A DNA stretch of 64,000 bases from Dasypus novemcinctus. Its lineage: Eukaryota > Chordata > Mammalia > Cingulata > Dasypodidae. Every line of letters starts with the position of its first letter. Position 1 is the stretch's first letter. Positions 9,843 through 44,099 of the stretch are shown one piece after another. The DNA lies in contig NC_080695.1 of the NCBI RefSeq assembly GCF_030445035.2, positions 52,469,954 through 52,533,953 on the forward strand, read 5' to 3'. The notes beneath the pieces are model-generated. The model saw only the letters and a program-made list of their open reading frames with translations. It did not search any database and was not told where the DNA came from. The position numbers and the translations under genes are program-made.

Positions 9843-9990
9843 CAAATGGAGGAGGTGGAGGCCGTGGGTGAAGCCACCAGGGTGGAGGAGGCCACCAATA
9901 GCCCATTCGTGGTGGTGGAGGGCCTCCCATGGGGTAGGGCATGAAGGGTGATCCTTGGAAAGGAGGGGGCCCACTTGCAGCCATATTATC
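9843..9990 (-). CDS. MIA3-like: MIA3-like exon: Pro-rich segment
   Basis: 148 bp, acceptor TTTGCAG, donor G|GTAAGATG. It encodes 49 residues opening DNMAASGPPPFQG with PMGGPPPP, PPPPWWLHPRP and PPPPPF, closely parallel to the Pro-rich Sec23-binding tail of TANGO1 (which has a GPPPFPG...PMGGP stretch). Phase 0 in, phase 1 out. If the donor is not used, translation continues only four residues (GKMK) to a TGA at 9,829-9,831. The next exon of the family model was not seen in 1-9,842. Confidence 0.8.
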
Positions 9991-12900
9991 CTGCAAAGCA
10001 GTAGTCAAAGTTAAGAAATATGTTGATTTGACAGACAAAACCACCAACATCAAGAAAACTGAAATCCAATACATACGAGTACCAGTGTGGGAAAACACAT
10101 CCCTCCCACGCAGCCCCACCCATGCTACTTAGAGATGTTAATACACGCCGAGAGGGTGAACTTCTGTCACCACTCATGCCACTTATTTCACTCCCTGTGA
10201 GAACATGTAAGGAAAGACAAGGGAAATGCTAGGGAAGTAATAGATGTAACTCCAATTAATAGAAGAGCATATTCCTAAATGACACTTTTTCCCCAAAACC
10301 ACCTTTCAAACCTCCCTTTCAATCACCACAAAACCTACCTATTTGCATTAAAACCATAACGAGAGAAAATGAAAACCAAAAGAAAAATAGCTGCTCTTCA
10401 GACACCTTAGATAAGCCTTTCATGTCATATCTCATTCACAGAACTCTGAAAGTTAGAAGGACCAACCTAAATTTGGGTGAATAGAGACTCTGAGGAGAAT
10501 TAGATCGTTTGCCCAGGGTCACAGCTTGCAAGAGACACAGCCAGAATGGACACCGGGTCTGCCTGCCAGCCCGGTTTTTTCCCCATCTGCTTCTCTCCCT
10601 GACAAATAGTTCTTCTACTCTGGAATTTCTCTCTCGTGGGCACTAGAGAGATGCATATTCCTGAAGTCTAGTGTGGAAACAGGGAAAATGTTTTCAAACA
10701 AAATCATTATTACCAATAGAAGTTAGATAGGCACAGCTATATGTGTCTGAATTCATAGGTTATACTGTATTTTAAGTATTGCATGAGCTGCAGATGAGAA
10801 TGCTAAATGACAGAATTAAAATAAATGCATTCTGATTTCAAGGTGGAGAAGTCCCATAGTATATGTTAAGAGGATTTACCACATTAACATTTACACAGAC
10901 CAATAAAGAACATACTTTCACCAATGTATTCCAAGACCTTTATTGGCCATACAGGTAATAATTGATTTTCACTCTTCACTATTTCACTTCCAGTGTTGCC
11001 AATTTGTAATTTTTTATAATTTTGATGAATTTACCTAATGTCTGACTGCTGGGATTCTGCTATAGCACATTTTCCAATAGAGATGACGCGATGCTGAATT
11101 ATGTTATTCATTATGGATTTCCCTAAGAGCATTCAAATTGCATGAAGCTTACAAACAAAGTTGGAGGGATGTCATTTCACATTTTCAAATATGAGGATTA
11201 GAGAAGATGTTCTAAACATGTATAATCTCATAATCTTATATAAGAATGGAATAAAGTAATAACAATAACAAAAACCAGTATGCAGTAACCCAGCAACATT
11301 TCCAAATAAAGGAGATTAGTAAGGAATCAAGCGTGCCATGATTTTCCAGTAGTGGAGGGAAGTGCCTTTCTTATTCTGTTCCTTCCAGAGATAGAGGAGT
11401 GCTAGCCCTTAATTCCTCACCCTCTGTGGCAGTTTGATATTGTTGATGAACTCCAAAATGGAATATTGGATTATGTTTGTAAACTGGTCTTTTCCTCCGG
11501 ACGTATTAGAGTGTATTGGTTTAACTTTACTTGACTAAATAATGATTGAGGCTTTGATTGGGCCACATCAATGAGGCGTTGCATCCTACCCCCTTGGTGG
11601 GTGAGGACTCAGTAAAACCACAGAGCAGAGAAGGGAGGTTGGAGTTTTGATGTTGGAGATTTTGATGCTGAAGTCTTGAGCTGGAGCCCCAGGAATAAGC
11701 ACACAAAGGGAGCTTGGTTGTGAGGAAAGACAGAAGGCCCCGGGAAGAGAAACAAGTCATTTGCCTACTAGTCTACAGGCCTTGTGGAGTGAGGCAAAGG
11801 GTAGAGAGCCTCATAGACTACAGCTGACCTTGTGGGGAAAGCAGAGGAGCTGAGCCTGGAGAAAATGAACCCTGGGAAAAGAAGAAAGCCTGAATCCTAG
11901 AAGATATTGGCAGCCATCTTGCTCCAACACGGAGCAAGAGACTTTGGTGAGGAAAGAAACTTATGCTCTATGGCCTGGTAACTGTAAGCTGCTACCTCGA
12001 ATAAATACCTTTTATAAAAACCAACTGATTTCTGGTATGTTGCATCAGCACCCCCTTTGCTGGCTAACATACCCTCTTAAGGACTTAAAGCTCCTGGAAG
12101 TGCCAGCAAAATGGCAAGCTGGGAATGGGAAGGCTTCAGGACTTGGGGGAAGAGTTTTCTATTTGTAAAGAGACAGCAAAGATATCAATGAACAAGGAAG
12201 AGAATGAGGCAAGAAGAGGGTGTTATATGAAAAGATCCAATTTTCCTGAAATATTTACTTATGCATGAAAAGGATGGCAGCATTTACCTTGCCTTCTTCC
12301 ATCATCTTGGCAGGGAATGAGCTTCTGGAGTTGTTGTTCTTCACGGGAGCTGCACCAGGTCCTGAATCAGACAAAGGTCAGAGACCGCGCCAAGGTTTAC
12401 CCTGATTTGCATATTTCTTTACAGAAGAATAACAAACCCCCCACTCCTTTCCTCCATTCATCTTGGGCTCTTTACCTCACTTAGTTCCCTCACCAGTCCT
12501 AAGATATCTCAGGTGGCCCTTTAAGACAAGGGGGAGGCACATCCCCTGACCACTGAGAATGACATCACAGAACATGGGTGTATTCAAACCAAATCAAGGA
12601 AAAGTGGATGGTTTAGGGATCATACTAGCTGGCAATGGACATTAAAACCAGGGATCTCCCCGTACACATCGTGTAAATGCCTTGCAATCTAAGCCAAGTT
12701 AGAAAATTAAAATAAGAACAGCCTTGGAGAGGAAGAATATCTTTAAATCCTACACATTAACCTCACTGGAACTGTTCTTCAAACCACAGGTGGATATTTT
12801 TAAATCTTTCTATCTCTGTGTAACCTGACTCCTATATTGGCCAGGTAATTTAGAAATTTTATGCATAGAAATGGACTTACACCCCTTCTTGATTTAGAGG

Positions 12901-15900
12901 TGAAGTGGACATCAGGATGGAGGAATCAAATATGGATTAGAGTGGGCTTATTGGTACTCTACTATAGAATTATTGTGACTCTAGCAATGGAAGAAACTAT
13001 CTCATTGATGAGAAGACAGTGGCCATGGGAATTGCTGGAGGCAGGGAGAGGGAAAAGGAGGTGTGATATGGGGGGCATTTTTGGCACTTGGCGTGGTCCT
13101 GAATGTTATTGCAGGGACAGATGCAGGACGTTACATATCCTGCCATAACCCACTGAACTGACTGGGAGAGAGTGTAAGCTACAACATAAGCTATAATCCA
13201 GGCTGTGTAGCAATGCTCCAAAATGTACCCATCAAGTGCAATGAATGTACCACACTAATGAAAGAAGTTGTCAGTGTGGGAGGAGTGGGGTGTGTGGGGT
13301 ACATGGGAACCTCTTATATTTTTTATTGTAGCATTTTGTGTGACTTATGTATCTTTAAAAAAAAGATAATAAAAAAGAAATGGACTTAGAGGCATTAATA
13401 GTAATAAGAAGATAATTATTGGGTTTAATAGTACAATTGTAGGGTAGTAGACTTGATGTAGGATGAGTAAATTTACATGGAAATTTAATGTATGGATAAA
13501 GTACTATAATTCATAACGAAATATTAGAACACATGAAGAAAAAGAAGAAACTCAAAAAATTTTAAATAAGTGTTTGATTTTAAAAGATCTTACAGTACAC
13601 TATTATTCCTCTCAGAATAATCAGGAAAATTTCTTCCTGAGGCAGGACATTTAGTCCATATTCTAAAAGAAATGAGAAAAAACTCCTTGAACCATATACC
13701 CTAAAGGGGGGAATGAACTTTGACCCAATGATCTTCTATGGATGCTTCATCATCATCTGAGAATAACAAAGAGGTCATTGTAGCAGGTGTGCGTTTTCAG
13801 TGGACAGGTGTGAGCTCCACCATTCACAGGAGACAGACAAGGAGACATTCTGACTGGGGGACCCTTTGACAACAATACCCTGTCATCCCAGTAAGACAAT
13901 CTGATTTCTTTACTAAGTTCGTAGGACAATTTCTGGCAGCACGAGGACAGCCAAGTGGAACAAAAAGCACTCTATGTGGATTTTCCAGCAGAAATTAAGT
14001 TGCTGCTCTTCACAAAATGCTTCCTACCTCTGCACGGAGGGTTTTGCATGTCAGTTCTTCCCAGCATTGGGGCCTTAATGCCACATTTTTCTTGTGCCTT
14101 CTTATTTTGATTTTTTTCCAATCTTCAACACAAAGAAAGAATAGAATTGAATGAACATTAGAACAAGATAAAACTATCCCTTATTTGATACCAAATAATG
14201 TGGCCTTAAAAACTCAAAAACATGCTGAGAAAAAAATGGATGCCAAAAATCCTGTACCTGCATCTCAAGTAGGCAGCTGCTCTGGTCTCCTCGACCATCG
14301 CTCTCTCTAGATCCTGAATTCTGATCTATAGAGGACAAACATACATGCACATTCATTTGTAGTAGAAACTGAAAAAAAGGAAGGAGCCACCACCACAACA
14401 AAATCCTACCCAGTTGTCATGTTCCTTCTTCTCATAAAGAGCAATCTGAAAAACACAACATATAAACATATATATGTTTGGGGATTCTAAAGACTAGTAC
14501 TTATATATGAGTTAGATGCTGTAGAATGCTGGGATTGCCAATAGAAAGACTGTTACCTCTTGTTTGAATGAGCTCTCTGCTTGCTGTAGTTTTTTCTCCA
14601 TTTCTTCAATTATTTTCCTATGAGTTACAATCACTTTCATCAGATAAAGCAAAGTAGTGACCACAAAATCAAATATCCTTTCTATATTCCCAGGACCCTA
14701 TAAACTGCACCCTTATAGACTTCACCTATACAAATTAAAACATACTTCACATGATTTTAAGAGTACAGTAGGATCAAAGATATTGTCTCAGTTTATTTAC
14801 TACTTACCAATTGGAAATATCTCAGCTTACATTTCATCATGTCTTGACCCATTCTTAAAATTTCTCTAATCAATCCTAGAATGAGTATCTTTCATTTTAA
14901 TGTGTTTTTCTTACTTTCCTTATGTTCAGTCCATATTTCCCATGGCTATGACAACTTGGTCTGTCAAATGGTATTATCACTATGCCAAACTTCCTTAGGG
15001 ATCCCAACAATTACATCACCCCCATTTCTGGCTAGCGCTGGGAATCAATAAAGTATTAGTAACTGAACATTTTTCTTCTTTCATAAAAGTAACTTTTTTC
15101 CCTTGTGTAAATTCCCAATTTCTTCTCATCATATATTTATGTTTCTGAACTACTTGGGTCTAAATAATGTACAATAGTTCAAAAACATTCAACACTGGAT
15201 ACACAAACTGCTGGTGGTGAGAAGGTGAGCTCACTTGTAATTCTCTACTTCCTCCATAGCCAAACTGTTTTTTTCCTCTGCAGCTGACAGCTCCTTCTGG
15301 GTTTTCTGCTGCTTGTGCTCTTCATGCTCAAGTTTCCTAAGATGAGAAATAAATACACAACACTGTCCATTCACTTGTGAAATTCATGTTTATTCCCTCC
15401 CATCACTTTGAAGACCTTCATTCAAATGTCCTTTCCATTCTTCCACATAAATGCATACGTTCACAAACACGATTAGAGGAAAGATGCAAGTCTCCTTTTG
15501 ACAAACTCTGGACTGCTGGCAAGTTGTCTACTTTTGGACCTTCCCTTCATTAGATCCTACTCAATAGTCAATAAAATTAGCAAATGTAAATAGTACATAT
15601 GAGACATTCTAAATGACCTTTGGGGGAAAGTCATTTGTGGTGGAACTTTTAATTCCATGTGGGAAATGAGGATTGACCAATTTGTCACAACTAATCAGAT
15701 TAGGATGAAACAGGAGATGGTTATTGGTCTGATTTCTCTATGGGAAGACGTTTTTGATTGCACATCTTATGAATAACACTGATAAAAAGAGATAACTGCA
15801 GGATTTGGCATTATTAAAAATGTGCAGTTAGCTACATGACATTCCCACAGCTCAGAAGTGGAATGTCTAACACCTCCTTCAGAAGTTTCTGGTTGAGAAA

Positions 15901-33900: not shown

Positions 33901-36900
33901 CGTCCGTTTATCACATGGGAGGTCCGCGGTTCAAACCCTGGGACACCCTGACCCATGTAGAGCTGGCCCATGCACAGTGCTGATCCGCACAAGGAATGCC
34001 ATGGCACGCAGGGGTGTCCCCCGCGTAGGGGAGGCCCACGTGCAAGGAGTGTGCCCCGTAAGGAGAGCTGCCCAGCGGGAAAGAAAGTGCAGCCTGCCTA
34101 AGAATGGCACCACCCACACGGAGAGCTGACACAAGATGACGCAACAAAAAGAAACACAGATTCCCGTGCCACTGACAACAACAGAAGTGGACAAAGAAGA
34201 AGATGCAGCAAATAGACACGGAGAACAGACAACCAGAGCAGGGGAGCAGGGGAAATAAATAAACAAACAAACAAACAAATAAATAAATAAAATACAATAA
34301 AGGAAACAAGTTAAAAAACCAGCAACTAAAAAATGGCCTACTTATTATTTATGAGTCAAAGTTTACCTACAAGGTACTTTAATATACTCACAGCAAGGAC
34401 TTTGCTCCAGATGAAAATGGCAAATAAAGAAATTCCCAAGTAGCCAGTAGTAATGATACAATTCCAAAAAAATCTGTACAAGTCAGACCCAGAAGGAAAG
34501 CTGTCAGGCAGTAGATCAGCTAGCTAGAATAACAATATCGGAAATAATGAGAAGCCTCAAAGTAATTTACAGTAATTCACAATACTGTACATTTTAAAAT
34601 ACAAAGTATTAAAAAAGAGAGATTCATTCAACAGAATAGGAATCAGGAATGAAAAAGAATAAATTACTGATCCATGCAGAAACAAGAACAAATCTCAGAA
34701 ACACTATACTGAGCAGAGAAAGACACACACGGAAGAGTACATATAACGTGCTTCCATTTATATGAAATTCTAGAACAAGTAAAATTGTTATAATGAAGGC
34801 AAAGATTGAATGAAAGTAGGGTAATGACACTTTCTGGGGTGTTTCCCACCCCCCTCAGGCCATCTGGGCCTCTACTGTGCAAGAGAAACACGTTTTGAAA
34901 GGGGTTTGTATTATGCATGTGTATATGTATGTCAAACTTCCATGATGTTCTCTTAAGATTTGTTTATTTACTCTATGTAAATTGCACATTAAAAGAAAAA
35001 TCTGTAAATAAATATTTAACAATGCTTAATGACAGGCATGGTAAAGTATTTAGGAGGAAATATTCTGATGTCTCCAATTTACTTTGAAATGCACTAAAAT
35101 ATGATGAATAGATGGTTGGATAGGAAGGTAGGTGATTATGTTTAGTGAACTGTTAATGGAAAATGTTGCTTTAAGGCTGAAAATTTTCATAATAAAAAAG
35201 TCAGAATAAGAGCAAAACCAAAATAACACATAGCAGTGCTTTGACTTTTTCTGTTCTGCGTTTTTCAGCAAGCCTTTCAAAAGCAATTGCTATTAAATGG
35301 CTAGGTATATAAACGCTTTTAGGTACACTCTCAATTCAGCATAAGTTGCAAATTATAACTATGCGCAGGTAGAATTCTGCAGAGGTGCTAATTTCTGGGT
35401 TTATGTTTTTATGGATGAATCAGCCCCAAATTTCTTACCAAGGATAAGAATTAACAATAAGCAAATTGTAGTATATCCATAAAATGGAATACTACCCAGG
35501 AATGGAAATGAACAAAACCATCAATATATAAAACCACAAGGGTAAATGTCAAAATGATTATGTTACTAAAAAGAATCTTGCTCCAATAATAGAAAACTTT
35601 CCATGTCCTTCCGTAATTGTGAGGAAGGGGTATTAGGAAAGATGGAGGGGATGGATGGATGGATTACAATGGAGCACAGAAAAGCTTTTGGGCTTGTTGG
35701 GTATGATTATTATCTTCACGGTGGTGATTATTTCATAGTTACATATACATGTCAAAATTCAACATATTTTATATATTAAATAGGTGCTGTTTACATCACT
35801 TACATATGACTCAAGGATTAGGGGGAAAAATTGGATATACTAACTTTGTTATTTTTCTATCAAAATAGAGCAAATTTTTAAATATTGTTAATTTAATTTA
35901 TCATTTTATAAATCGATTTGTAATTGACAAAATAATATAAATTCAGACTTACATGGAATGGAAAGTATAGATCTTCTTTGATATACTTATGAATTAACTG
36001 GACTAAATCTTTTGGAACATTTCCAAACGTACGCTCAACCTGTAGAATGAACAGAGAAACAGAAATCAAAATTCTCATAGCAGCATATGTCACAACTGTC
36101 AAAAGATGGAAGCCAACCACATACCCACCAATCAAGAAGTAGATAAAATATAGTATAGACACACGTTGGAATATTATTCGGCTGTAAAAAGGAATAAAGT
36201 TCTGATATAAGCGACAACATGGATCAGCCTTAAAGACATCATGGTGACTGAAATAAGCCAGACAGAAAAGGACAGATATTATATGATCTATGAATATTAA
36301 ACAATTAGAATAAATAAATTCATAGAGTCATAAACTGGAATATAGGTTACCAGGAGCCAGGGTGGGAGTAGGAAGTGGGGAGTTAATGTTTAAAATTGTA
36401 CAAAGTTTTATTTGGGAAGATGGAAACATTTTGGTAATGGATGGTGGCGATGGTACTGTGAGATTGTGAACATAATTAAACAGCACTGAAATATATATTT
36501 AAAAAGAGAAATTTTGGAATGTATATATGATACCAGAATAAATTTTTTAAAAATTACATAAGACGTACAACACAAACTATGAACCCTAAGGTAAATCCAC
36601 GGACTATAGTTAATATTTCAATTATACAATGTTCTTTTATCAATTGCAACTAATGTTCTATGCTAATCCAAGATATTAATTATAGGGTGGTATATGGGAA
36701 CTCTGTATTTTATGTATGATGCTTCTGTAGGCCAACAACTTCTCTAATTAAAATTTTAAAAAATAACATTGGATAATGGAAATGCTCCTTCAAATTACAA
36801 AGTTCATATGGGTGGTATAATTTGATTATAAATAAAAGGATTTAGTCTTTTAAAAAATTCTGTACTAAAGATATAAATTAAAGAAGTATCTGCAGTTATG

Positions 36901-39900
36901 GACAAACTGAGAGATACAGGTGGCAGTTATTATATTATCCTGGGATTAATATTCCCATAAAATTGGAATATTAGATGGAAGCAGCTACATGGACCATGGA
37001 AAGTGCAGAGCAGGCTATTCGGTAGTCACTCTCACTGGAATATTAGAAGCAAAGAACTTCAGCACCAAAAGCCAAACTAGTTGCTCTCGTAAGCATCCTG
37101 CAGCTAAGTACAGGACAAAAGGCAAACATATATGCAGAGTCCAGACATGCTTCTGTTGTCCTACAAGCATGTGGAGCCATTTGGAAAGAACGTGGTTTAT
37201 TAAGCACTGCCAATAAAAATATCAAAACGTGTAGACTTGATCTTGCAGTTGTTAACTGTAGTTTTACAGCCAAAAGACTGGCAGTTATTCCTTGTAAGGG
37301 ACATCAAGCTACTGATAGCAAAGAAGCTAAAGGCAATAGACAGGCAGATAAAGCAGCAAGAGAGGTGGCCAAAGGGGAAATTACCCTTCCAACCCTTGCT
37401 TAGTTTTACCCAAACCACACACTATTACCTCACAGTGAGTGAAGACCTGAACTAGAGACATTTAGAAAACCTCAGTATTCAGAAAAAGACTTAGCAAGGG
37501 CAAAAGAATGGGATTTCAAAGTCTAATTAAACAGGGATGTTTACAAAATGAAAATGAATGCAGGGAGATGAGTAAAACTCATGTCCCAGAAAACCTCCTC
37601 AAACCCATCATAACACACGTTTACCAAATCACACACTATGGACGAGAAACCCTTTACAAATGGTTTATTTTCTAAGCAGACCTAACCTAAGCCGAACTAG
37701 TCAAGCTGTAACTAATCCATGCGTAACATGCACTCTAGTCAATCTTTGGCCCGCCCTAAAGTACCAGCTTTAACAAAAGGAGTACACTATCGGTGACCAG
37801 GCAGAGGTGATGATTGGCAAATTGATTTTACCATAATGCCTCAGGCACCTGGAAATTTGAAATCTCTGCTAGTATTTGTTGACAGTTTACTAGATGGGTA
37901 GAAGCTTTCCCTTGTCTAACTGAGAAAATCCATGAAGTTATTCAGTGTTTTCTAAAAGAAATTATTTCTGGGTTTGGGCTCCCTCTGCCCATTCAAAGTG
38001 ATAATAGTGCTGCCCTTGTCTCTAATGTAGTCAAAGATGTTTCCGATTTACTGGGTATTGATTGGTGGCTTCACTTCTCCTATCGAGCTCAATCCACAGG
38101 GGGAAAAAAAAGAATGAATGAACAGAACATTAAAAGAACATCTAGCAAAAATTTGTTTGGAAATACAGTTAAAATGAGATAAAGCCCTGCCCGTTGCACT
38201 CCTGAGGATGAGTAGAACCCCAAAGTGGATTAGGTTTAAGTCTTATGAAATGACATGTGGAAGGCCATTTCTAAAAGTAGAATATGCTGGGAATATACAT
38301 CCTAGTTTTGAATTACCCACTATTCAACTTATAAAACCCCTAGGAGGAACTCTAACTGAAATCAATAACTAAGCTTCCAACTATCTTAAGTTCCCTGCAG
38401 GTGCTCCTTTACACAACTCCCATCCTGGAGATTGGATATGGTTACAAACATGGAAAAACTTACACCCCCAAACACAACTAAGTTCCAGATTGGTAGGAGC
38501 ATATCTGGTGTTGCTTCACACTCACTCTTCTCTTAAACTACAGCATCAAACCATGGATACATCATACTAGAGTCAAGCTACAACCAATCTTGCACAGTGA
38601 TTCTCTACCACTCCGCCAAAAAGCAGCTGTTGTCAGCAACCCACCTGAAGATCCTGAACATAAAAATATACCTGTGAATCCCTAAGTCAGGAGTCCTCGC
38701 CTAGAGCTACTTTCAAGATTACCCCCAATCCTTTGAACAATGATCAATTTTGCTTACATACCATGGACCAATGTTTCCAGCAAGAAACCCCGTAACTACT
38801 ACAACCCATTTCAGTAGGAAGCAGCCAGAACGAACAACTGAGTCCCCCCAAAATTAATTCCACGATTGGAAATAAAAGTAAAATCAAAGGGAATCTGTAG
38901 CTCAAGAATAACCGGGGGGATTTGTAGCATGAACAGAATACAATATACTTGTAACCTAGCAAGCACCTTAGAATAGGCATAAAGTCTCTAAAGAAAAGCA
39001 CATAGCTCTGTCGAGTTCAATGTGTTTTTTTAAAGATTTATTTTATTTATTTATCTCTCCCCATCCCCTCCTTGTTTGCACTTACTGTGTGCTGTGTCTT
39101 TAGGAGGCACTGGGAACTGAGCCCAGGACCTCCAACCTGGGAGGGAGGCACCTAATTGCTGGAGTCATTTCCGTTCCCTGCTTTGTTGTGTCTCTCATGA
39201 TTTTTCTTCTTGTGTCTTTTGTTGCATGTTGAGTTGAACATTAACTAGACATTTTAATTCTCTTTCTTTGTAGAGAAAAATATACCTTCGTAATGCTTCA
39301 CTCATTCCCTACTCTTACCCCCGTGAAATTTAGAGGCAACAGGCACAATATGTATCTTAAATATTAACCAGAGCAGAAACATTAGAAAAGCTCCTCCAAC
39401 CCCTCCCCAATGATTAATTTTCTTTGTTTCAAATCATGCTACAATTAATTCTCTTTGTTTCAAACCTGTATAAAAGTTGTTAAAATAAAACCAAAAAAAA
39501 ACCTTGGCAGGGAGGCAGATTTCAGATTTGAGATTGATTAGGTCTACTCTCCTCCTCCAGCTAATACAGCCCCTTTTCCTTCCCAGCCTAGTTTGGTGTG
39601 CCTGTCTATTCTGCCATACCGAGGGATGAGCCTATGGGTTGTTCCGGTCTCCTTCACAACGATCCTGTATGGAAATACCCCGGAATGCAGGTGAATGGGC
39701 CAGACAAGACCCTTTCTGTACAGAGCTGTGACTTTCTAGGTGAGACAAAACCATGTAAACAAATTAACTGTCTTACAAAGCAATGAATACAAATGCTTCT
39801 GATAAAGGGAAGCAAAGCATCATGGACACATACTAAAAGAGCAAAGATATATTTTGTCTGGTCCTAAAGCTGGTTTTACTAAAGTGGGATAAAATAACTT

Positions 39901-40410
39901 GACTTCAGGATTTTACTGGTGGACATGGCCATGAACAAGGGTAGCGGTGGGAAATGAAAAATGGGTTAACTTATCCAAATGCTCACAGATGCACTAGGGA
40001 AAGAGAGCTTAACTGAGCTATGAAAAATGAAACCTAAATGGGGAAAAAAAGGCAAGAATAAAGGCTATCATGAAATTACACCATATATTAGACTCACAAG
40101 GAAGAGATTAGATTTTTCTCTTCCTGGAGTGGTTCAATTGTCTTGGTTCTGTGTCAATACAAGGTCCCACTGGAGTTTTCTAGATCCTTCCTTGGTAACT
40201 GGTGCATGCAAGAAAAGAAAGAAAAATTAATGATCTCCAAAGTGTGTTTCCAATCTTTCTCTCTGCTTTCCTTTGCTTCTTTCCCTCTTTTGGAGGGCTT
40301 ACTTTGAAATCTTCCCAGTTGACACTGGATATTTCTATATGCTTAGAAGCTACTAAGGCATATGTGAATCCCCTGTATATTCTCTGTAACATTTATGTAA
40401 TCAAAATATC

Positions 40411-40470
<60 letters not shown>

Positions 40471-43400
40471 AGATACTAAGGTCGCCACTGACCCTTTCTG
40501 CTCTGGGTGTATCAGGAGTCTGAACACCACATGAGGACAGGAACTCATCTTCCTGCCTGTCATGTCCTCCATGCCATAAATTCACTCATTTTTTAACAAT
40601 CCCAGCAAGTAACAGCCATTTATTTTCATGTCACAGACTTTTGAGGGCTCCCCTTAAACTATATGGACACAGAATCCCTGAGGGAGTCCCCAGAAACAGA
40701 AGGGAAGGTATGACAAGCAAGTTGTTAAAGCCAAAGAAGAAACAAGATATCACAGAATGCAAATGATATTTTGCTTTTTTTCACATAGTAGTAATAACAC
40801 CAATTATTAGACACCATAGTTCCCAGGGTGGCCAAGCTTTCAGAAATATGAGTAATATGCTTAACAAAAATGCAAGTGCACATGGGATGGAATCTAAATT
40901 GCAGACTTGAAGGAGGAAACACTAAACTGTTTGGACATAGTTAAGCATTTGGCATCCTCTTTCTTGTCTTCAGTTTTATTTCCTGGCACACATTCATGAC
41001 TTCTCCCTGTATTTATCTCTGCTTGTACTGTTTGCCTCTATATACATTCATTTTTCCTTTAGAGAAACAGACAATTTCTATTTTATGATTGCTTCAGCAT
41101 TTTACTTCTCAGGAAAAAACCTTAAATTCCTTTCTTAAAGCTACAATATAAATGGTACATGAATTGACTTTTAGGAAAAAGGGATATATGGACAAGGGCC
41201 AAAAAGAAAAACTACAGACATATAACAGAAAAAAGTAAACATCTGTGATTAGAATAGGCAGACATAACATCAAACATTTGAGAACACATTCTAAAACAAT
41301 TAACAAACCATTTCAAAATCAAGAGTTAGTAAAGAAAGAGAAATACAGATTAAAAGAACTATAAAAAACATAGTATAGGCAACATTACCTTAGTAAATTT
41401 AAGACATTACAAATGGAATACTTATGGGAAGATGAAAATGACTAAAACTAAATGGAAATATATGTGAAAATCTTTAGTTTAGTTTTTTTGTGTGTGTGTG
41501 TAATTCAGCAGCAATTTTTCATCTTTATAACTGAAATGATATCAGAAAATTTTCTTCAATCTGAAAGAAAAGATCCTGGCAAAATGGCCATGACAAAACT
41601 TATAATTGCTTTCAAATGTACATAGGGTGGAATCTTTCATCTTTTCTGACTAGGTTGCAGTACGTGCCATGCTAAAACAATTAGAAGCATCTGAGGAAGG
41701 GGTTTACCTGACCAAGATGGTTGAGTAAGAAGTTTAAAAACCCTGTCTCCTCACAGCACCTTAGAAAACAGGCAGAGACTGGCTGAAACAAATAAATGAG
41801 AACTTTGGGGAAACAGTCAAAGGTGTACAGCAGCCAAATGAATGCTGAATCAAGAAAAAGGCAACTTAAGAACAGCAGGAAAACCTCACAGCACTTTTAC
41901 TAGCCTTCCCCCAGTTTTGTACAGAGGCAGCTCACGCTCCCTCTGCAGGTTCCTGGTCCTAGGTCTGGAGAGAACAGGGTCCACCTTCCAGACTGTCTGT
42001 AGCATCTTAAAGAACACATACAGTATGTTCACCTCTGACTCTCCTGTTCCAGTGCACACCCTGGACTGGAAAGTGGCTGGAATGGTTGTAAAACACCCTA
42101 TGGGAACAATCCAACAGCAGCAGATTGGGACAAAATATTAACCTACAGCTGCATTTACCATCCCAGTCCTCGGCAAATACCCTACAGGAAAACCCAGGAA
42201 TGTGTTTAGGATTCTCCCAGATTCCAACCCACATTTAAAGCTCTACTGGCTTATTTTTCCTTAGTAGGGGCTTTTTGTCTACAGCAGTCTCAGCCTCAGG
42301 GTACAGACTAATCAAACTCCCTTAGGTTGGAAATGACTGGTTTCCTCTAGTTCATCTAGTAATGGCTCTTCTCTTACTGAAATTTTAATCTAGTTATATT
42401 ACTTCACTTTCTCAGTCCCCTGGTTGGCTCTGATGTTTTCCAATAAGCAAGTTTTGTAAGGTAACCACTTTTTTTTTCCTATTACTGTTATGCCTCTGCT
42501 TGTTACATCTCCCTGGAAGTGTAAGTACCATTCCCTTCTCCAGGATTAAAAGCCAAGCTCCTCTCAGTCCAGCATGACTGTCATTTTCTGCTGGGATTCT
42601 ATTTCTCCACCTACAAAACTAGAAAGTGCTTCAGGGGAAAGAGAGTATGCATGTGGTGCTTAGATCAGGGTGATTCCTTTCCTTCGGGGATGTAGTACTT
42701 CAAGTCCTTTTGGTTTGGTTCTCCAATGCCTTCCCCTCTACTGTTTTACATACTTTCTCAACTTTTGCAGTTGCTTTTAGTTAGACAGTATGTTGGACAT
42801 AATCAACTATCATGTTCAAAACTAGAATGACTTTACCAGGATTTCTTTTCATCTTCCTTTCAGAAGTAAATATTGAAATGCACCTGGGGCAGCTCCCAGG
42901 CACAGAAGGAAAGGTATGACTCAGACGTTGTTAAAGCCAAGGAAGAAACAAGAAAGCACAAAAGGTCAATGATATTTTTTTCACACAGTGTTAATAATAC
43001 CAGTTATTAGGAAAAACAGTTCCCATCACAGACATGCTTTCAGAAATATGAATAATATACTTAAGAAAAAAGTAAATGTACATGGGATGGAATCTAAACC
43101 GTAGATTTGAAGGAGAACCTTACTAGAGCTTCCAAGATCAAGTGTAATGAGCAGGAGTCTGATCAAATACGAGGTTCTTCCTTTTTCATAGAACAGGCTC
43201 ATTAAGATAATTCACATACCATTTGATCCCCCATTAAAACTGTACAATTCAACAGCTTTTAGAACATGTACAGTTCTTTGCCTTTTGAGGTTATAAAGTT
43301 ACTATCTTCACATTTCAACTATTTCATCATTTCCTGTGTGTGAAATAAGTAGGATCTGGAGGACACAGAACCCCACCTGGACAGATGGTGCCAGTCTAAT

Positions 43401-43607
43401 AAGGCTAGTTAGGAAACTGCAGCTTTCTACAGGAGTAAGGAGAGCCCACTCAAAGCACCCAAGAAGAACCTGATTTAAATCAGTATGAAACAGAGAGTCC
43501 AATAAAACGGAAGGAAGCAGGTATGCCCAACATTTACTCACGGTAATGGGTGGGTCACTTGGAAATCCCAGCAGAATGAGCCAGAAGAGTAGCCAGGATA
43601 ACCCCAT
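9843..43607 (-). CDS. MIA3-like: MIA3/TANGO1-like gene, 20 exons, 3' end not found
   Basis: The exons below join into one frame of about 565 codons. Predicted order: signal peptide (residues 1-22), second half of an SH3-like MIA domain (23-51), a lumenal stretch and membrane helix (about 71-90), a long coiled coil (about 96-470) and a Pro-rich tail (to 565). This is the domain order of TANGO1/MIA3, an ER-exit-site receptor. In that family the lumenal SH3-like domain engages collagen/HSP47, the coiled coils recruit fusion and tether factors, and the Pro-rich tail binds Sec23. Matching exon phases, microexons and motifs tie it to MIA3 rather than MIA2. Divergence is too high for MIA3 itself, and the giant lumenal exon is absent. 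SH3 exon 2, one coiled-coil exon and the terminal exon were not found, and one Pro-rich exon is degenerate. A functional paralogue or a young pseudogene are both possible. Confidence 0.72.
10430..10610 (+). mobile_element. MIR SINE fragment
   Basis: Contains 'tttgcccagggtcacagcttgcaag' and 'ccgggtctgcctgcc', close to the MIR core ('gcccaaggtcacacagctagtaag'), in sense orientation. Ancient and degraded. It lies in the last visible intron of the MIA3-like gene. Confidence 0.6.
11425..12070 (+). mobile_element. Solo LTR, MaLR/ERVL-like, with 6-bp TSD
   Basis: A 646-bp LTR running TGTGGCAGTTTGAT...GCTAACAT, flanked by 'accctc' at 11,419-11,424 and 12,071-12,076. It carries an AATAAA signal ('gaataaatacc') and the family 3' phrase 'ctgatttctggtatgttgcatcagc'. 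No proviral interior. It is antisense to the host gene, so its polyadenylation signal should not terminate host transcripts. Confidence 0.8.
12288..12361 (-). CDS. MIA3-like: MIA3-like exon: Ser/Asn-rich linker before the Pro-rich tail
   Basis: 74 bp, acceptor CTGATTCAG, donor G|GTAAAT. After two split bases it encodes PGAAPVKNNNSRSSFPAKMMEEGK. This parallels the GSGTATMMNSSSRGSSP...DEGK segment that precedes the GPPPFPG stretch in TANGO1. Enters in phase 1, leaves in phase 0. Its entry phase equals the exit phase of the exon at 14,028-14,122, so skipping the degenerate exon between them keeps the frame. Confidence 0.8.
12880..13375 (+). mobile_element. ORF-less L1-mobilised retroelement with 13-bp TSD
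   Basis: A 496-bp insertion flanked by the perfect direct repeat 'agaaatggactta' at 12,867-12,879 and 13,376-13,388, ending in an A-rich tail. It has the same family body as 9,249-9,784, including 'aatggattagagtgggcttattgg', 'gatatggggggcattttt' and 'gtacatgggaacctc'. Its 5' start differs from the other copies, consistent with 5' truncation during L1 retrotransposition. Confidence 0.8.
13740..13863 (-). pseudogene. MIA3-like: Degenerate MIA3-like Pro/Ser exon with frameshift
   Basis: From a weak acceptor (GTCAAAG|GG) the frame set by the upstream exon reads GSPSQNVSLSVS. This parallels the GPLSQNGSFGPSP segment of TANGO1. The parallel then continues in another frame (SPVNGGAHTCPL versus SPVSGGECSPPL), so a small indel, apparently 2 bp, lies near 13,826-13,840. 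The upstream frame meets a stop at about 13,775, and the other frame runs into TGATGATGA at about 13,752. The acceptor lacks a good pyrimidine tract. This exon has lost coding function or is skipped. Confidence 0.6.
14028..14122 (-). CDS. MIA3-like: MIA3-like exon: end of coiled coil into Pro-rich region
   Basis: 95 bp with pyrimidine-rich acceptor (TTTGTGTTGAAG) and donor G|GTAGGA. It encodes LEKNQNKKAQEK then GIKAPMLGRTDMQNPPCR. The second half parallels the VIVKPMPGKPNTQNPPRRG stretch that links coiled coil and Pro-rich domain in TANGO1. Two residues shorter than I expect in the coiled-coil end. Enters with two split bases, leaves in phase 1. Confidence 0.78.
14258..14325 (-). CDS. MIA3-like: MIA3-like exon: coiled coil (ERAMVEE)
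   Basis: 68 bp, acceptor CTCTATAG, donor G|GTACAG. Encodes IRIQDLERAMVEETRAAAYL plus RC and a split Arg. This matches in length and pattern the AERAIAEEKREAANLRHK part of the TANGO1 coiled coil. Phase 0 in, phase 2 out. A second AG 16 bp inside the exon is possible but would break frame and family length. Confidence 0.8.
14410..14445 (-). CDS. MIA3-like: MIA3-like exon: 36-bp coiled-coil exon
   Basis: 36 bp, acceptor TTTTTCAG, donor G|GTAGGA. Encodes IALYEKKEHDNW, parallel to IATHEKKAHENW in TANGO1. This is a highly characteristic family segment with an invariant NW. Phase 0 on both sides. Confidence 0.85.
14557..14617 (-). CDS. MIA3-like: MIA3-like exon: coiled coil
   Basis: 61 bp, acceptor CTCATAG, donor G|GTAACA. 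After completing a split Lys it encodes KIIEEMEKKLQQAESSFKQE, parallel to [20 protein letters not shown] of TANGO1. Leaves in phase 0. Confidence 0.85.
15235..15336 (-). CDS. MIA3-like: MIA3-like exon: coiled coil
   Basis: 102 bp, acceptor ATCTTAG, donor A|GTGAGC. Encodes KLEHEEHKQQKTQKELSAAE then EKNSLAMEEVENY. This parallels the KKLSQEEYERQ...LSAADEKAVSAAEEVKTYK segment of TANGO1. Both ends split Lys codons. Confidence 0.85.
16206..16232. repeat. (CA)n microsatellite
   Basis: Pure 'acacac' dinucleotide run of about 25 bp inside an intron. Confidence 0.9.
16816..17262 (+). mobile_element. LTR, MaLR/ERVL-like, 5'-truncated
   Basis: Same family as 11,425-12,070. Shared phrases are 'atattggattatgtttgtaaac', 'tttgattgggcca', 'ggagccccgggaa', 'gcagccatcttgctccaaca' and 'aataaatacccttta', ending 'ctgactaatacag'. 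The first ~40 bp of the LTR are missing. No internal genes. Confidence 0.75.
17263..20683. other. Intron with L1 3'UTR fragment and possible LTR, no exon seen
   Basis: A sense L1 3'UTR fragment lies at about 18,690-18,960 ('gtgaacataattgatagcactgaa'-like phrases, 'gttattaataatagggtagaatatg'). 20,000-20,500 resembles an ERV LTR (TA-rich end, 'agccatttatagttagtctg'), but this is only a weak impression. The remainder looks unique. No MIA3-like exon was visible between 15,336 and 20,684, in line with the phase match across it. Confidence 0.45.
20684..20822 (-). CDS. MIA3-like: MIA3-like exon: coiled coil
   Basis: 139 bp, acceptor CTTTTCAG, donor A|GTAAGG. Encodes EYLKQLEDECNALRSVKHAK, EEECKTLSMKLEIFDEIYAQ, RKMSAE and part of Lys. 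This parallels the [40 protein letters not shown] region of TANGO1. The ECKTL core is identical. Enters with two split bases, leaves in phase 2. Confidence 0.88.
20999..21089 (-). CDS. MIA3-like: MIA3-like exon: coiled coil (KCNLE)
   Basis: 91 bp, acceptor ATTCTTAG, donor G|GTATGT. Encodes TKAAISAPEDDLEKLQFRLG and SMTTTKCNLE. This parallels [31 protein letters not shown] in TANGO1, with KCNLE identical. Phase 0 in, phase 1 out. Confidence 0.88.
21178..21230 (-). CDS. MIA3-like: MIA3-like exon: QMMDVS segment
   Basis: 53 bp, acceptor TTTTTTAG, donor G|GTATAA. Encodes DVNRKMEIPATQMMDVSQ including a split first codon, parallel to the [20 protein letters not shown] of TANGO1. QMMDVS is conserved. 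Confidence 0.87.
21410..21787 (-). mobile_element. L1M-type 3' fragment (antisense), left part
   Basis: Starts with 'aattcacataccacaaatgcacc' and 'gtgtacaattccgtggttattag', the antisense of old mammalian L1 3' ends. Interrupted at 21,788 by an LTR and resumed at 22,236. Confidence 0.75.
21788..22235 (+). mobile_element. ERV-L-type solo LTR inserted in L1
   Basis: Starts 'tgttaatttcacaggcccacttggc' and ends 'tctagagaattttggctaaaaca'. This is the sense form of the LTR family seen inverted at 52,383-52,839 and 53,778-54,219. The L1 reads on from 21,787 to 22,236. A (CA)n run lies at 22,165-22,190. Confidence 0.7.
22236..22560 (-). mobile_element. L1M-type 3' fragment (antisense), right part
   Basis: Continues the L1 antisense text ('cattttatttatccattaac', 'tttccaatttgggctattatg', 'tgagttactgccaggatg'). 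Confidence 0.75.
22652..22711. repeat. 24-bp direct repeat, 36-bp period
   Basis: 'gctggacagaaacaagcatataac' occurs at 22,652-22,675 and identically at 22,688-22,711. A small local duplication in an intron. Confidence 0.9.
22828..22915 (-). CDS. MIA3-like: MIA3-like exon: ALTNCI segment
   Basis: 88 bp, acceptor CTTTTTAG, donor G|GTAAGA. Encodes ALTNCIAQLNESYESEFEDK and NLGVNEVLT. The first ten residues are nearly identical to ALTNCITQLN of TANGO1, and the rest is the acidic linker. Phase 0 in, phase 1 out. Confidence 0.9.
22999..23118 (-). CDS. MIA3-like: MIA3-like exon: coiled coil
   Basis: 120 bp, acceptor CTTTCCAG, donor T|GTAAGT. Encodes MQQQIEGRKEHSELLEKIKY and LENKQKDMEKAMTEKDNTIA. 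This parallels [40 protein letters not shown] of TANGO1. Phase 0 on both sides. Confidence 0.9.
23748..23811. repeat. Perfect 32-bp tandem duplication
   Basis: A 32-bp unit starting 'aaaacaaacttgtcctcata' is present twice head to tail (23,748-23,779, 23,780-23,811) with no difference. Intronic. Confidence 0.92.
23893..23928 (-). CDS. MIA3-like: MIA3-like exon: 36-bp coiled-coil exon
   Basis: 36 bp, acceptor CTGATACAG, donor G|GTAAAA. Encodes RENISLRNKKDE, parallel to EENARLKKKKEQ in TANGO1, just before the LQQEIEDW segment. Phase 0 on both sides. The TANGO1 segment that should precede it (about 47 residues, SEVQIALNEAK...ECHRVQ) was not found between here and 24,595. Confidence 0.78.
24595..24705 (-). 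CDS. MIA3-like: MIA3-like exon: coiled coil
   Basis: 111 bp, acceptor TATTGCAG, donor G|GTAAGA. Encodes DNIKTLNGSNEMLNQSIEIT and RVALIFKRNEEIKNQIL. This parallels [37 protein letters not shown] of TANGO1. Phase 0 on both sides. Confidence 0.88.
24791..24868 (-). CDS. MIA3-like: MIA3-like exon: coiled coil
   Basis: 78 bp, acceptor TATATAG, donor G|GTAAAT. Encodes TSEFKKCIKETKREFNVLSD plus EANKFK, parallel to the [26 protein letters not shown] segment of TANGO1. LSDEA is identical. Phase 0 on both sides. Confidence 0.88.
25104..25192 (-). CDS. MIA3-like: MIA3-like exon: start of coiled coil
   Basis: 89 bp, acceptor GTTTTTAG, donor G|GTATAA. Encodes (V)NLQQISNKIKNFMDENAEIA and QKISILEQK, parallel to [30 protein letters not shown] in TANGO1. 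Enters with a split Val, leaves in phase 0. Confidence 0.9.
25440..25830 (+). mobile_element. L1M-type 3'UTR fragment
   Basis: Sense L1 3'UTR phrases: 'tcaattgtaacaaatgtactac', 'atgttaataatagggaaaac' and 'tatatgggaattccctatac', with an A-rich end. Confidence 0.7.
26510..26720 (+). mobile_element. Possible MIR SINE fragment
   Basis: 'tcaagattttcatctccaagatgtgaatgctagcacctac' resembles the MIR stretch 'tcctcatctgtaaaatggg...tagtacctac'. Strongly degraded. Confidence 0.4.
27418..27439 (-). CDS. MIA3-like: MIA3-like 22-bp microexon
   Basis: 22 bp only, acceptor TCTTCTAG, donor G|GTAAGC. Encodes VKPHTYQ plus the first base of Val. It joins the membrane exon to the coiled coil as VKPHTYQ|V, parallel to VKDRVYQV in TANGO1. 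A microexon at this exact place is strong evidence for the gene model. No gene predictor would find it without homology. Confidence 0.85.
27895..28110 (-). mobile_element. Retroelement 3' end (antisense, T-rich start)
   Basis: A T-rich stretch followed by 'attgactttgtaataatattac', 'ggtcccattcaacccc' and C-runs looks like the inverted polyadenylated 3' end of an L1-type element. Family not settled. Confidence 0.45.
29207..29324. repeat. Perfect 58-bp tandem duplication (60-bp period)
   Basis: The unit opening 'aaaccaggaaactgttctca' and closing 'cttctgcccctttag/tc' occurs at 29,207-29,264 and 29,267-29,324 without a mismatch. It lies in the intron upstream of the 22-bp microexon. Recent duplication or assembly artefact. 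Confidence 0.93.
29865..29970 (-). mobile_element. tRNA-derived SINE (DAS-type), antisense
   Basis: Starts with a T17 run (inverted poly-A). On the minus strand it reads 'gtagctcagtggttgagcac' (A-box-like) and 'ggttcaatcccaggtac' (B-box-like), a tRNA-like head of about 75 bp. The same family occurs at 60,175-60,280. Confidence 0.75.
30767..31412 (-). mobile_element. Solo LTR, MaLR/ERVL-like, inverted
   Basis: On the minus strand it runs TGTGCTAGTTTGAATC...GCAAACTAAAACA. It contains 'ggaccccagaaaatc', 'tactagagtcct'-type phrases and the family gene-less body. It is the only member of this LTR family in reverse orientation in the window, and so in the same direction as the MIA3-like gene. It therefore could act as a promoter or polyadenylation site for it. 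Confidence 0.7.
31930..32360 (+). mobile_element. DAS-type SINE, diverged
   Basis: 'agatgtggctcaaccaattgggctcccatctactgtaggaggtc' is a tRNA-like head. It is followed by a body with repeated 'ctggcccatgcagtgagctggcccacatgg' phrases and an A-rich tail ('gggaaaaaaaaataaacc'). Confidence 0.7.
32640..33000 (+). mobile_element. L1M-type 3'UTR fragment
   Basis: 'gaaactcaaaatctttgtgcctggtaag...cacagaagagtacacactgtgt' and 'tccatgtatgtgaaattctatt' are typical of the sense 3' region of old mammalian L1s. A similar piece lies at 34,620-34,830. Confidence 0.6.
33869..34298 (+). mobile_element. Full-length DAS SINE (armadillo type) with 11-bp TSD
   Basis: Begins GGGAAGCGGACTTGGCCCAG with an RNA polymerase III A box, then 'ggttcaaaccc' (B box). 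It continues with 'gcacaaggaatgccatgg', 'aggggtgtcccccgcgtagg', 'cacggagagctgacacaag' and ends in a (CAAA/TAAA)n tail. The direct repeat 'aaaggaaacaa' flanks it (33,858-33,868 and 34,299-34,309). Little diverged from the DAS consensus as I remember it. The best species marker in the window. Confidence 0.93.
34392..34523 (-). CDS. MIA3-like: MIA3-like exon: membrane-spanning segment
   Basis: 132 bp, acceptor TTATTCTAG, donor T|GTGAGT. Encodes LADLLPDSFPSGSDLYRFFW then NCIITTGYLGISLFAIFIW and SKVLA. The lumenal part matches the LPDDVQPGPDFYGLPW stretch of TANGO1. The hydrophobic 20-residue helix ending FAIFIW matches its FAIFLW membrane segment. Phase 0 on both sides. An alternative AG 4 bp inside would break the frame. 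Confidence 0.88.
34620..34830 (+). mobile_element. L1M-type 3'UTR fragment
   Basis: 'ctcagaaacactatactgagcagagaaag' and 'gtgcttccatttatatgaaattctag' are sense L1 3' phrases. Confidence 0.6.
35455..35870 (+). mobile_element. L1M-type 3' fragment
   Basis: 'gtagtatatccataaaatggaatactacccagg' and later 'cggtggtgattatttcatagttac' are standard L1 3'-region phrases in sense. Confidence 0.65.
35953..36039 (-). CDS. MIA3-like: MIA3-like exon: C-terminal half of the SH3-like MIA domain
   Basis: 87 bp, acceptor TTCTACAG, donor T|GTAAGT. Encodes VERTFGNVPKDLVQLIHKYI and KEDLYFPFH. This parallels the [29 protein letters not shown] end of the TANGO1 SH3-like domain. The FG-x-x-PKDL core is kept, though the usual YFP is NVP. 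Phase 0 on both sides, so it can join directly to the membrane exon. Confidence 0.85.
36060..36775 (+). mobile_element. L1M-type 3'UTR fragments (two pieces)
   Basis: 36,060-36,535 has 'gacatcatggtgactgaaataagccagac' and 'ggttaccaggagccagggtgggag'. 36,545-36,775 has 'ggactatagttaatatttcaattat' and 'caattgcaactaatgttcta', ending A-rich. Both are sense L1 3'UTR. Confidence 0.7.
36970..38650 (+). pseudogene. Gammaretrovirus-like ERV pol remnant (RNase H to integrase)
   Basis: From 36,989 the plus strand reads an RNase H-like end (an AGYSVVT segment, then a KSQ stretch). A zinc-binding His-Cys region follows at about 37,600-37,740 with a TNPCVTC motif. The integrase core (37,790-38,130) starts with a WQIDFT-type motif and later shows a QSDN segment. 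Many stops and frame changes make it non-coding. Pol is normally cleaved into protease, RT/RNase H and integrase; only the second half is present here. Upstream pol and gag are absent. It lies antisense within the gene's large first-to-second exon interval. Confidence 0.75.
39010..39240 (-). mobile_element. DAS-type SINE, antisense, inside the ERV remnant
   Basis: Starts with inverted A-rich tail 'ttaaagatttattttatttattt'. It has 'tgggaactgagcccaggacctcc' (inverted B-box region) and 'gttgtgtctctcatgatttttc'. Inserted between pol remnant and the putative LTR. Confidence 0.7.
39250..39700 (+). mobile_element. Probable class I ERV LTR (3' LTR of the pol remnant)
   Basis: 'cctgtataaaagttgttaaaataaaacc' gives a TATA-like and AATAAA-like pair. 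It is followed by 'ggcagggaggcagatttcagatttgag' and a pyrimidine-rich stretch, the usual R/U5 layout of class I LTRs. The ends are not defined. 39,600-40,200 may still be retroviral but I cannot assign it. Confidence 0.4.
40415..40466. repeat. (GA)n microsatellite
   Basis: About 52 bp of uninterrupted 'ga' dinucleotides. A likely polymorphic locus. Confidence 0.95.
40690..40925. repeat. Diverged ~230-bp repeat, copy 1
   Basis: Shares with 42,890-43,115 the order 'gttgttaaagccaa(a/g)gaagaaacaag', 'tttttttcacA(tag/cag)tg', 'ccagttattag'-like, 'tttcagaaatatga(g/a)taatat', 'catgggatggaatctaaa' and 'gaaggagg/gaacc'. Family unknown. The minus strand is open (40,725-40,922), but copy 2 has a stop at the same place. 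Confidence 0.75.
41700..42200 (+). mobile_element. L1-type 5'UTR fragment
   Basis: 'gaccaagatggttgagtaagaagtttaaaaacc' followed by 'aacaggcagagactggctg' resembles the 'ccaagatggcggagtgagaag' opening of old L1/HAL1 5'UTRs in sense orientation. Confidence 0.55.
42890..43115. repeat. Diverged ~230-bp repeat, copy 2
   Basis: Partner of 40,690-40,925 in the same orientation, about 2.2 kb away. See copy 1 for shared phrases. Confidence 0.75.
43195..43290 (-). mobile_element. Short L1M 3' fragment (antisense)
   Basis: 'aattcacataccatttgatcc' and 'actgtacaattcaacagcttttag' match the antisense L1M phrases seen at 21,415. Confidence 0.6.
43542..43607 (-). CDS. MIA3-like: MIA3-like first coding exon: signal peptide
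   Basis: ATG at 43,607 in good Kozak context (GGACATGGG: G at -3 and +4). It encodes MGLSWLLFWLILLGFPSDPP plus IT and ends at donor C|GTGAGT. A short N-region and an 11-residue hydrophobic core fit a cleavable ER signal peptide, as in MIA-family first exons. It leaves in phase 0, compatible with the SH3 exon at 36,039. The intervening exon carrying the first half of the SH3 domain (the two Cys and the GPDC-type motif) was not found. Confidence 0.68.
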
Positions 43608-43609
43608 GT

Positions 43610-43830
43610 CCTGGCTCCCTGGGGGGCGGTGTTGGTGCCACCAAGAGGGGAAGGGGAGGGGCTAAGGCTGGGTCTAGGGTGGGGGTGGTCCCGAGAATGC
43701 GAATGGGGTGAGGGTGTGGCCAGGCTCAGAGTTGAGGTGTGAGAAATGGGAAAGGGCAGAGTGGGTGGATATCTCCGAGGAGGAAGAGACAGGGTTGGGG
43801 GGATTTAGGGGAGGGTAGAAGGAGAGGGAT
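43610..43830 (-). promoter_or_regulatory. Probable promoter/5'UTR of the MIA3-like gene
   Basis: GC-rich sequence directly upstream of the signal-peptide exon. On the minus strand it contains a GC-box (CCGCCCCCC) about 20 bp before the ATG and several CACCC/CCCTCCCC Sp1/KLF-type boxes. No TATA box is seen close by. The richness ends near 44,060. Inferred from base composition and position. Confidence 0.5.
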
Positions 43831-44067
43831 CTAGCTGGAGAGTGGAATAGGGTTCAGCTCAGTAGGTGAGGGTATCAGTAAGTCAGCAGGTACGCAAGTT
43901 CTGCCGGCACTAGGTGCAGGCCAATTTAAACTGCCAGGAGCAAGTGAAGGACAAGGACTAGGCTCCGTCCTCCTTCCTGCCTTCTCCTGTGTGGCTGCTG
44001 CCTTGGCAACCTGGATGCTTTGCATCTCTCCTCGACCAATCCCCTGCCTTTGCTCCTTGCCCATCAT
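43831..44067 (-). other. Upstream ORF (78 codons) in the GC-rich region
   Basis: An open frame of 78 codons without family resemblance lies 5' of the signal exon. It may be a chance ORF in GC-rich sequence or an upstream ORF in a longer 5'UTR. I see no splice signal that would join it in frame. Confidence 0.2.
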
Positions 44068-44099
44068 AGTGGACGCCCTCGCGACCCCATTCTAAGGAT

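Follow-up and report, generated by a model that had tools for sequence, protein, structure and literature searches.

An intron-bearing MIA3 paralogue of the armadillo as the likely orthologue of the primate NPIP family

The window analysed here, a stretch of 64,000 nucleotides of the 3.61-Gb genome of the armadillo Dasypus novemcinctus (C37:52469954-52533953), carries on its minus strand an intact, intron-bearing gene that follows the pattern of MIA3, the collagen-export gene encoding TANGO1. We consider it likely that this gene is the armadillo orthologue of NPIP, that NPIP comes from a copy of MIA3 predating the split of the living placentals, and that the protein, judged by its anatomy, would be a scaffold resembling TANGO1-short. 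NPIP is a fast-changing family of chromosome 16; few human gene families are as strongly selected or as prone to duplication, and it forms the core of the chromosome-16 duplications linked to rearrangements in autism, epilepsy and obesity. The alignment from signal peptide to tail, the grouping in trees and the common ACSM/RRN3 setting together suggest that NPIP is likely a placental-wide derivative of MIA3; in primates the counterpart of the armadillo gene most likely survives as NPIP.

The gene has 20 coding exons, running from position 43607 down to 7667 of the window, and an open frame of 1,674 nt; the assembled protein is identical to the NCBI D. novemcinctus entry P0001 (557 residues). 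The exon set was obtained from the reading of the strand and from this NCBI protein, our own splice-site scan having recovered few true exons. Every one of the 19 introns has GT-AG borders, and the phases follow on from exon to exon without a break. An earlier reading made from the letters alone (hereafter the sequence-only reading) had placed twenty GT-AG exons between 43607 and 9843: the number, the splice sites and the phases stand, but only 19 exons lie inside that span, exon 20 (7680-7667) being outside.

All exons being on the minus strand, exon 1 (43542-43638) joins a 5' untranslated region (UTR; 43638-43608, deduced from a retrocopy described below) to the signal-peptide exon proper (43607-43542, MGLSWLLFWLILLGFPSDPPIT, phase 0). 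Exon 2 (35953-36039) is a remnant of the end of the SH3-like domain (VERTFGNVPKDLVQLIHKYIKEDLYFPFH), exon 3 (34392-34523, 132 bp) encodes the membrane helix, and exon 4 (27418-27439) has 22 bp. Coil 1 starts in exon 5 (25104-25192, 89 bp) and continues through exons 6 (24791-24868, 78 bp), 7 (24595-24705, 111 bp) and 8 (22999-23118, 120 bp); then come a linker in exon 9 (22828-22915, 88 bp) and exons 10 (21178-21230, 53 bp) and 11 (20999-21089, 91 bp). Coil 2 occupies exons 12 (20684-20822, 139 bp), 13 (15235-15336, 102 bp), 14 (14557-14617, 61 bp) and 15 (14410-14445, 36 bp) and ends in exon 16 (14258-14325). Two coding exons, 17 (14028-14122) and 18 (12288-12361), precede exon 19 (9843-9990), which bears the proline-rich tail with four PPP runs. 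Exon 20 (7503-7680) holds the last coding bases (7680-7667, 14 nt including the stop, ..PSF-stop) and the 3' UTR, with an AATAAA at 7523-7518 and a cleavage site that the retrocopy puts near 7503.

Armadillo MIA3 itself lies on another chromosome (C24:109.989-110.010 Mb), with 94%, 89%, 86% and 83% identity to human MIA3 in four exons. Boundaries were compared between the two genes for exons 3 and 5-15, leaving out 1, 2, 4 and 16-20: phases are equal in 12/12 exons, and lengths in 9 of the 12 (exons 3, 5-7 and 11-15), exons 8, 9 and 10 being off by 3, 24 and 3 nt (123, 112 and 56 bp in MIA3). MIA3 has two extra coil exons between the counterparts of exons 7 and 8, and two extra tail exons ahead of the counterpart of exon 18, for which the gene model has nothing between exons 17 and 18. 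A fragment near position 13660 could be a trace of a MIA3 tail exon since lost. This agreement of phases and lengths, added to the junctions of the retrocopy, indicates that the exon pattern is not due to chance. The MIA3 type proposed by the sequence-only reading is supported.

The 29 residues encoded by exon 2 match the SH3-like domain of TANGO1 at its end (PDB 7r3m), and this stretch is identical to the marmoset MIA3 model at 15 of 27 positions (E 5e-6). With the marmoset MIA3 N-terminus as a query the main SH3 exon of MIA3 was not found in the window: after exon 2 came the signal peptide (E 0.022), then matches of E 1.3 or worse. Apart from these last 29 residues, the luminal SH3-like cargo-binding domain of TANGO1L is absent. 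As the remnant of the SH3 end is kept and the main SH3 exon was not found, the source was the long form of the gene, whose cargo domain was lost. The pairwise distances to armadillo MIA3 (362 codons) are 0.67 synonymous (dS) and 0.36 nonsynonymous (dN) substitutions per site; at the usual mammalian neutral substitution rate, this dS would make the duplication more than 100 million years old, which is a rough figure.

Two trees were built. The first comprises 33 rows out of 165 proteins fetched and does not contain armadillo MIA3; the second comprises 30 rows, i.e. 29 of the first plus armadillo MIA3, leaving out two alpaca rows, one shrew MIA3 and human NPIPB2. The equid row is Equus asinus (donkey) in both. 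In the 30-row tree the 11 MIA3 proteins, that of the armadillo included, stand on one side at 100/100, and the 33-row tree agrees in keeping the armadillo gene apart from MIA3. A topology joining the xenarthran paralogues with armadillo MIA3 is rejected, being 139 log units worse (approximately unbiased test, AU, p 7e-7). The gene had been claimed beforehand not to be the MIA3 orthologue, a tree being proposed as the check; the presence of MIA3 on C24, the rejected topology and the position outside the MIA3 orthologues all agree with that claim. The data thus show kinship with MIA3, but not as its orthologue. That we are dealing with the xenarthran MIA3 orthologue, or with a cTAGE (MIA2-type) copy, appears extremely improbable: the former is contradicted by the gene on C24 and by the tree, and the latter by introns and an exon pattern that are those of MIA3, the trees having been computed without MIA2/cTAGE5. 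We also observed long single-frame matches, about 23-29% identical to MIA3, at C43:16.8-20.7, C6:34.7-39.6 and C5:47.7-47.9 Mb, with open frames up to about 570 residues and 13 rows on C43 alone; these may represent either a group of intronless cTAGE-type genes that has expanded in the armadillo or coiled-coil genes of another kind.

Relatives of the armadillo gene are placed by the trees in anteater, reindeer, muntjac, goat, cattle, hippopotamus, alpaca, donkey and rabbit, and proteins of sheep, buffalo and camel were assigned to the same group by identity only. The sequence-only reading had supposed that such a paralogue might be lost in many mammals; in the groups just named, relatives exist. 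The fuller models share one plan—signal peptide, helix, coils and short tail—and several others are partial (rabbit without the helix, donkey without the signal peptide); the anteater (Tamandua) model P0003 is long and open, with 541 residues. NPIP is colinear with the armadillo gene from signal peptide to tail. Macaque NPIP P0131 starts with MRVRWLLFWLLLLGF, where the armadillo protein has MGLSWLLFWLILLGF and marmoset MIA3 P0010 has WLLFWLLLLG; a helix segment follows that shares 51% identity with human MIA3 (45 residues), and P0131 matches reindeer P0015 at 38% over 224 and 42% over 67 residues, coil and tail being colinear up to a common MRNSS block. With the armadillo protein it shares 31% over 194 residues in a local alignment that takes in signal peptide and helix; in the global alignment of the two, exons 1-7 are unaligned. 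Within the window, the best match to human NPIPA1 (P0046) is exon 13 (E 7e-5). Against heptad-preserving shuffles of NPIP (300 each), z reaches 21-37 for coil and tail and 11-19 for signal peptide and helix, in 6/6 targets. The homology thus holds over the signal peptide, the helix, the coil and the MRNS block. A profile comparison aligned NPIP in the coil part only, over 114 columns with the paralogues and 74 with MIA3. Besides, NPIP and the paralogues have in common a shortening before the DSGP/DPGP..MRNSS block and, in the fuller models, a join of signal peptide to helix. The Pfam NPIP family (PF06409, gathering cut-off 27.5 bits) is matched at or above the cut-off by human MIA3 (33.0 bits), armadillo P0013 (30.3), reindeer P0015 (27.8), Galeopterus P0012 and alpaca P0035; the genome position of armadillo P0013 was not found. 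Two other alpaca proteins, P0039 and P0043, form a second fast-evolving lineage of the same family, and P0043 has a repeated C-terminal stretch reminiscent of the NPIP repeat tail.

In both trees the paralogues and NPIP group together at 100/100. The xenarthran paralogues form a group (96/92 and 95/88), and NPIP falls with the boreoeutherian paralogues (98/98 and 99/97), Xenarthra being their sister, as in the species tree. An origin of NPIP from primate MIA3 is rejected (AU p 2.9e-9).

The chromosomal setting is a further likeness. On human chromosome 16 the ancestral NPIP locus is at 14.94, RRN3 at 15.06 and ACSM2A/ACSM5 at 20.41 Mb. On C37, RRN3 is at 57.332-57.350 Mb, 4.8 Mb off, and ACSM exons lie at 52.739-52.741 and 53.012-53.143 Mb, 205-609 kb past the window, with others at 41.3, 57.5-57.9 and 61.8 Mb. 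The camel model P0044 reads from an ACSM gene directly into a relative of the armadillo gene; the human NPIPB protein P0094 opens with the ACSM exon seen in P0044 (69% over 42 residues); and in a published table ACSM2A/ACSM5 appear alongside LCR16a for African apes and for one prosimian (PMC7419210). The ACSM neighbourhood is thus probably old. The ACSM exon at the start of NPIPB has been read as an independent duplication from ACSM1 (PMC12790995); if our proposal is true, it may reflect the old neighbourhood. Single late ACSM exons, including that of the human NPIPB start, are also scattered at C37:5.28, 5.58 and 6.27 Mb, C6:0.36 and 0.62 Mb, C30:5.1 and 5.6 Mb, C39:0.42 Mb and C40:0.47, 0.73, 0.93 and 64.1 Mb, often near the contig start, as if the 3' part of ACSM were a duplicon.

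A processed copy has its origin in an mRNA spliced in a germ cell, and one such copy bears on the expression of the gene. On C34 (region 37981001-37983100) we found a retrocopy, 95.5% identical to the coding sequence over 1,673 aligned bases, in which 19/19 junctions are spliced as predicted. It starts in the 5' UTR (position 43638 of the window), ends in a poly(A) after AATAAA, and is flanked by short direct repeats. Spliced and polyadenylated transcripts of the gene, or of an intact close copy of it, were thus made in the germline, and this fossil complementary DNA answers the transcript part of the refuting condition set by the sequence-only reading. The region of exon 1 is poor in CpG (observed/expected 0.11-0.33 in 500-base windows over 43001-44250), which fits, but does not show, a tissue-restricted expression. 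Multi-exon single-frame matches on C11, C12, C3, C26, C13 and C40 resemble further processed copies, derived from MIA3 or from the armadillo gene.

The window gene also belongs to a set of genomic copies. Nearly the whole window belongs to one arm of an inverted repeat of 64.9 kb, 99.8% identical (94 mismatches, 10 gaps), whose facing arms, C37:52468215-52533109 (1-63156 in the window) and C37:52401422-52466297, are separated by a spacer of 1.9 kb; in the facing arm 20/20 exons are identical to those of the window gene. The unplaced contig C136 (202 kb) carries the same inverted pair with matching spacing, and an alignment of its centre, running through the spacer over 8,046 columns, has 19 mismatches and 11 gaps. 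The palindrome is therefore not a single misjoin; C136 may be the other haplotype. Among the matches listed, the other intron-bearing copies are at C37:9.84 and C37:35.87-35.94 Mb, with one exon-like match on C27, so that all clear intron-bearing copies there are on C37 or C136. This grouping on one chromosome parallels the multiplication of NPIP along chromosome 16. The sister copy P0002 (C37:9.837-9.864 Mb) is without exons 6-7, and its aligned codons include one in-frame stop, which is probably the TGA in exon 19. The two exons that it misses correspond to the part aligned with the TANGO1 self-association segment, which is also unaligned in NPIP.

Several results weigh against the identification with NPIP. 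NPIP has a very long branch in both trees; its nested position rests on a few well-sampled orders, lemur NPIP, dog, sloth and elephant not being among the rows; and a position of NPIP beside MIA3, outside the other paralogues, is not rejected by the AU test (p 0.056 and 0.061). The protein of the armadillo gene scores 9.0 bits with PF06409, below the cut-off, as do Tamandua P0003 (18.4) and Capra P0019 (25.3), and rabbit P0041, camel P0044 and alpaca P0039 have no Pfam NPIP match at E 0.01. The nearest ACSM exons, about 205 kb away, are not adjacent to the armadillo gene. Finally, dN/dS against MIA3 is 0.54 (bootstrap 0.38-0.74), about the value expected of an almost unconstrained branch, and the recent change of the window copy is as rich in replacements as that of the dead retrocopy (24:6 against 24:8 replacement to silent changes, once polarised; 19:8 in the sister copy). 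The long branch and the AU values would suit a true MIA3 paralogue in the armadillo together with a separate, later MIA3 offshoot giving NPIP, the two being cousins and not orthologues. We nevertheless regard this as improbable: the origin of NPIP from primate MIA3 is rejected, and two events would have had to repeat the shortening, the join of signal peptide to helix, and the ACSM/RRN3 setting.

A recent change as rich in replacements as the retrocopy's could also be that of a decaying duplicate without function, its frame open by luck. The sister copy, with its missing exons and its stop, points the same way, and for the recent branch alone (d 0.021) the frame stayed open in 105 of 400 neutral simulations, so that decay may have set in recently. 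Over the long branch, however, the frame was open in 0/400, and the chance that all 76 splice bases be intact, hence the 19 pairs of sites, is 6e-12. This branch length (d 0.34) is assumed as half the dS to MIA3, under a simple substitution model in which indels are not counted. The anteater model P0003 is likewise long and open, and the 20 exons are identical between the arms of the palindrome; mere decay seems very improbable to us. In the sequence-only reading, neutral dN/dS without transcripts was to count against its proposal: the ratio is indeed near neutral, yet transcription is attested by the retrocopy. Given these near-neutral ratios, we make no claim of a strong constraint on residues. 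Selection would rather keep the frame and the splice sites while the amino acids change almost neutrally. The same tension has been described for NPIP, whose frame stays open along primate branches although in dog, marmoset and macaque replacement cannot be told from neutral (PMC7419210).

What could such a protein do? The order announced by the sequence-only reading—signal peptide, SH3 end, membrane helix, coiled coils, proline-rich tail—is recovered from the translation, the match to PDB 7r3m, hydropathy and the structure model. The membrane helix, two coiled coils and the PPP-bearing tail are present in the sequence, in the hydropathy profile and in a model of low confidence, with helices at 65-94, 105-243 and 291-460 (mean predicted local distance difference test 66, predicted template modelling score 0.24). 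In TANGO1, coil 1 self-associates and tethers membranes of the intermediate compartment between endoplasmic reticulum (ER) and Golgi (ERGIC), coil 2 has cTAGE5 as its binding partner and the tail has SEC23 (PMC5851698), bound through PPP motifs (PMC6175875); TANGO1-short has the same cytoplasmic parts without the contact with cargo (PMC5851698). The minimal self-association segment, TANGO1 1255-1295 as mapped via the length difference of the two isoforms, falls on exons 6-7 of the armadillo gene in the alignment; exon 6 aligns with the self-association/TEER segment.

We propose that MIA3 was copied before the living placental mammals parted. The sequence shows what the copy has given up and what it has kept: the SH3 cargo-binding exon and the large luminal exon are gone, as is most of the proline-rich tail, whereas signal peptide, membrane helix, the two coiled coils and a short tail with PPP are still there. 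With the parts of TANGO1-short and the four PPP runs kept, the product is most likely a scaffold or modulator of ER exit sites. It could work like TANGO1-short, as an ER-membrane scaffold joining TANGO1/cTAGE5 through its coils, its PPP motifs binding SEC23 at ER exit sites while it would hold no cargo itself; it is also possible that it competes with TANGO1. Monkey NPIP is enriched in testis, and the expression of the armadillo gene would probably likewise be mainly in testis. We give about even chances to the wider picture, in which NPIP is the TANGO1 gene minus its cargo hand, a germline ER-exit-site scaffold across placentals for some 100 million years, whose locus multiplies along one chromosome, and has done so again in the armadillo with a palindrome of 65 kb.

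According to a 2019 review, paralogues of NPIP outside primates could not be identified (PMC6920530). A dog orthologue was reported in 2020, in a study whose available part names no parent family (PMC7419210). A 2025 study places in the human lineage the point at which one NPIPB clade began to use a signal-peptide start; it notes that other primates have this sequence too and that an MRVR start is possibly the ancestral one (PMC12790995). Our full-text search, which left subscription journals mostly aside, found no paper naming NPIP with MIA3 or TANGO1, and among the papers listed by a wider search none had NPIP or LCR16a beside a MIA3 term. The link between NPIP and MIA3 thus seems new, though novelty is not proven. 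If NPIP is a shortened TANGO1, its signal peptide was inherited from MIA3, and a concrete function, at ER exit sites with COPII and cTAGE5, can be tested at once.

Beside and inside the gene, 49652-50477 (minus strand) and 37047-37403 (plus strand) of the window have translations resembling stretches of retroviral proteins, presumably protease/reverse transcriptase (YIDD) and RNase H from old endogenous retrovirus fragments.

Among known systems, MIA3/TANGO1S resembles the armadillo gene in exon phases, most exon lengths, signal peptide, membrane helix, two coils and PPP tail. MIA3 differs by its SH3 domain and its large luminal domain, both absent here, and by the two tail exons before exon 18, the armadillo tail having only about 50 residues; the root-to-tip path is 0.45 for the armadillo gene as against 0.13 for armadillo MIA3, about 3.5 times longer. 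The family architecture is also shared with MIA2/TALI and cTAGE5 (PMC5851698). Unlike the intronless cTAGE copies, the armadillo gene has 19 introns and exons of the MIA3 type. With NPIP (morpheus; primates, human 16p13.11), it shares the colinear course from signal peptide to tail, the grouping in trees, ACSM and RRN3 on the same chromosome, and several copies along one chromosome. In the alignment NPIP is without most of coil 1 and the linker, and it carries a long C-terminal repeat tail, whereas the armadillo gene keeps 20 exons and the remnant of the SH3 exon.
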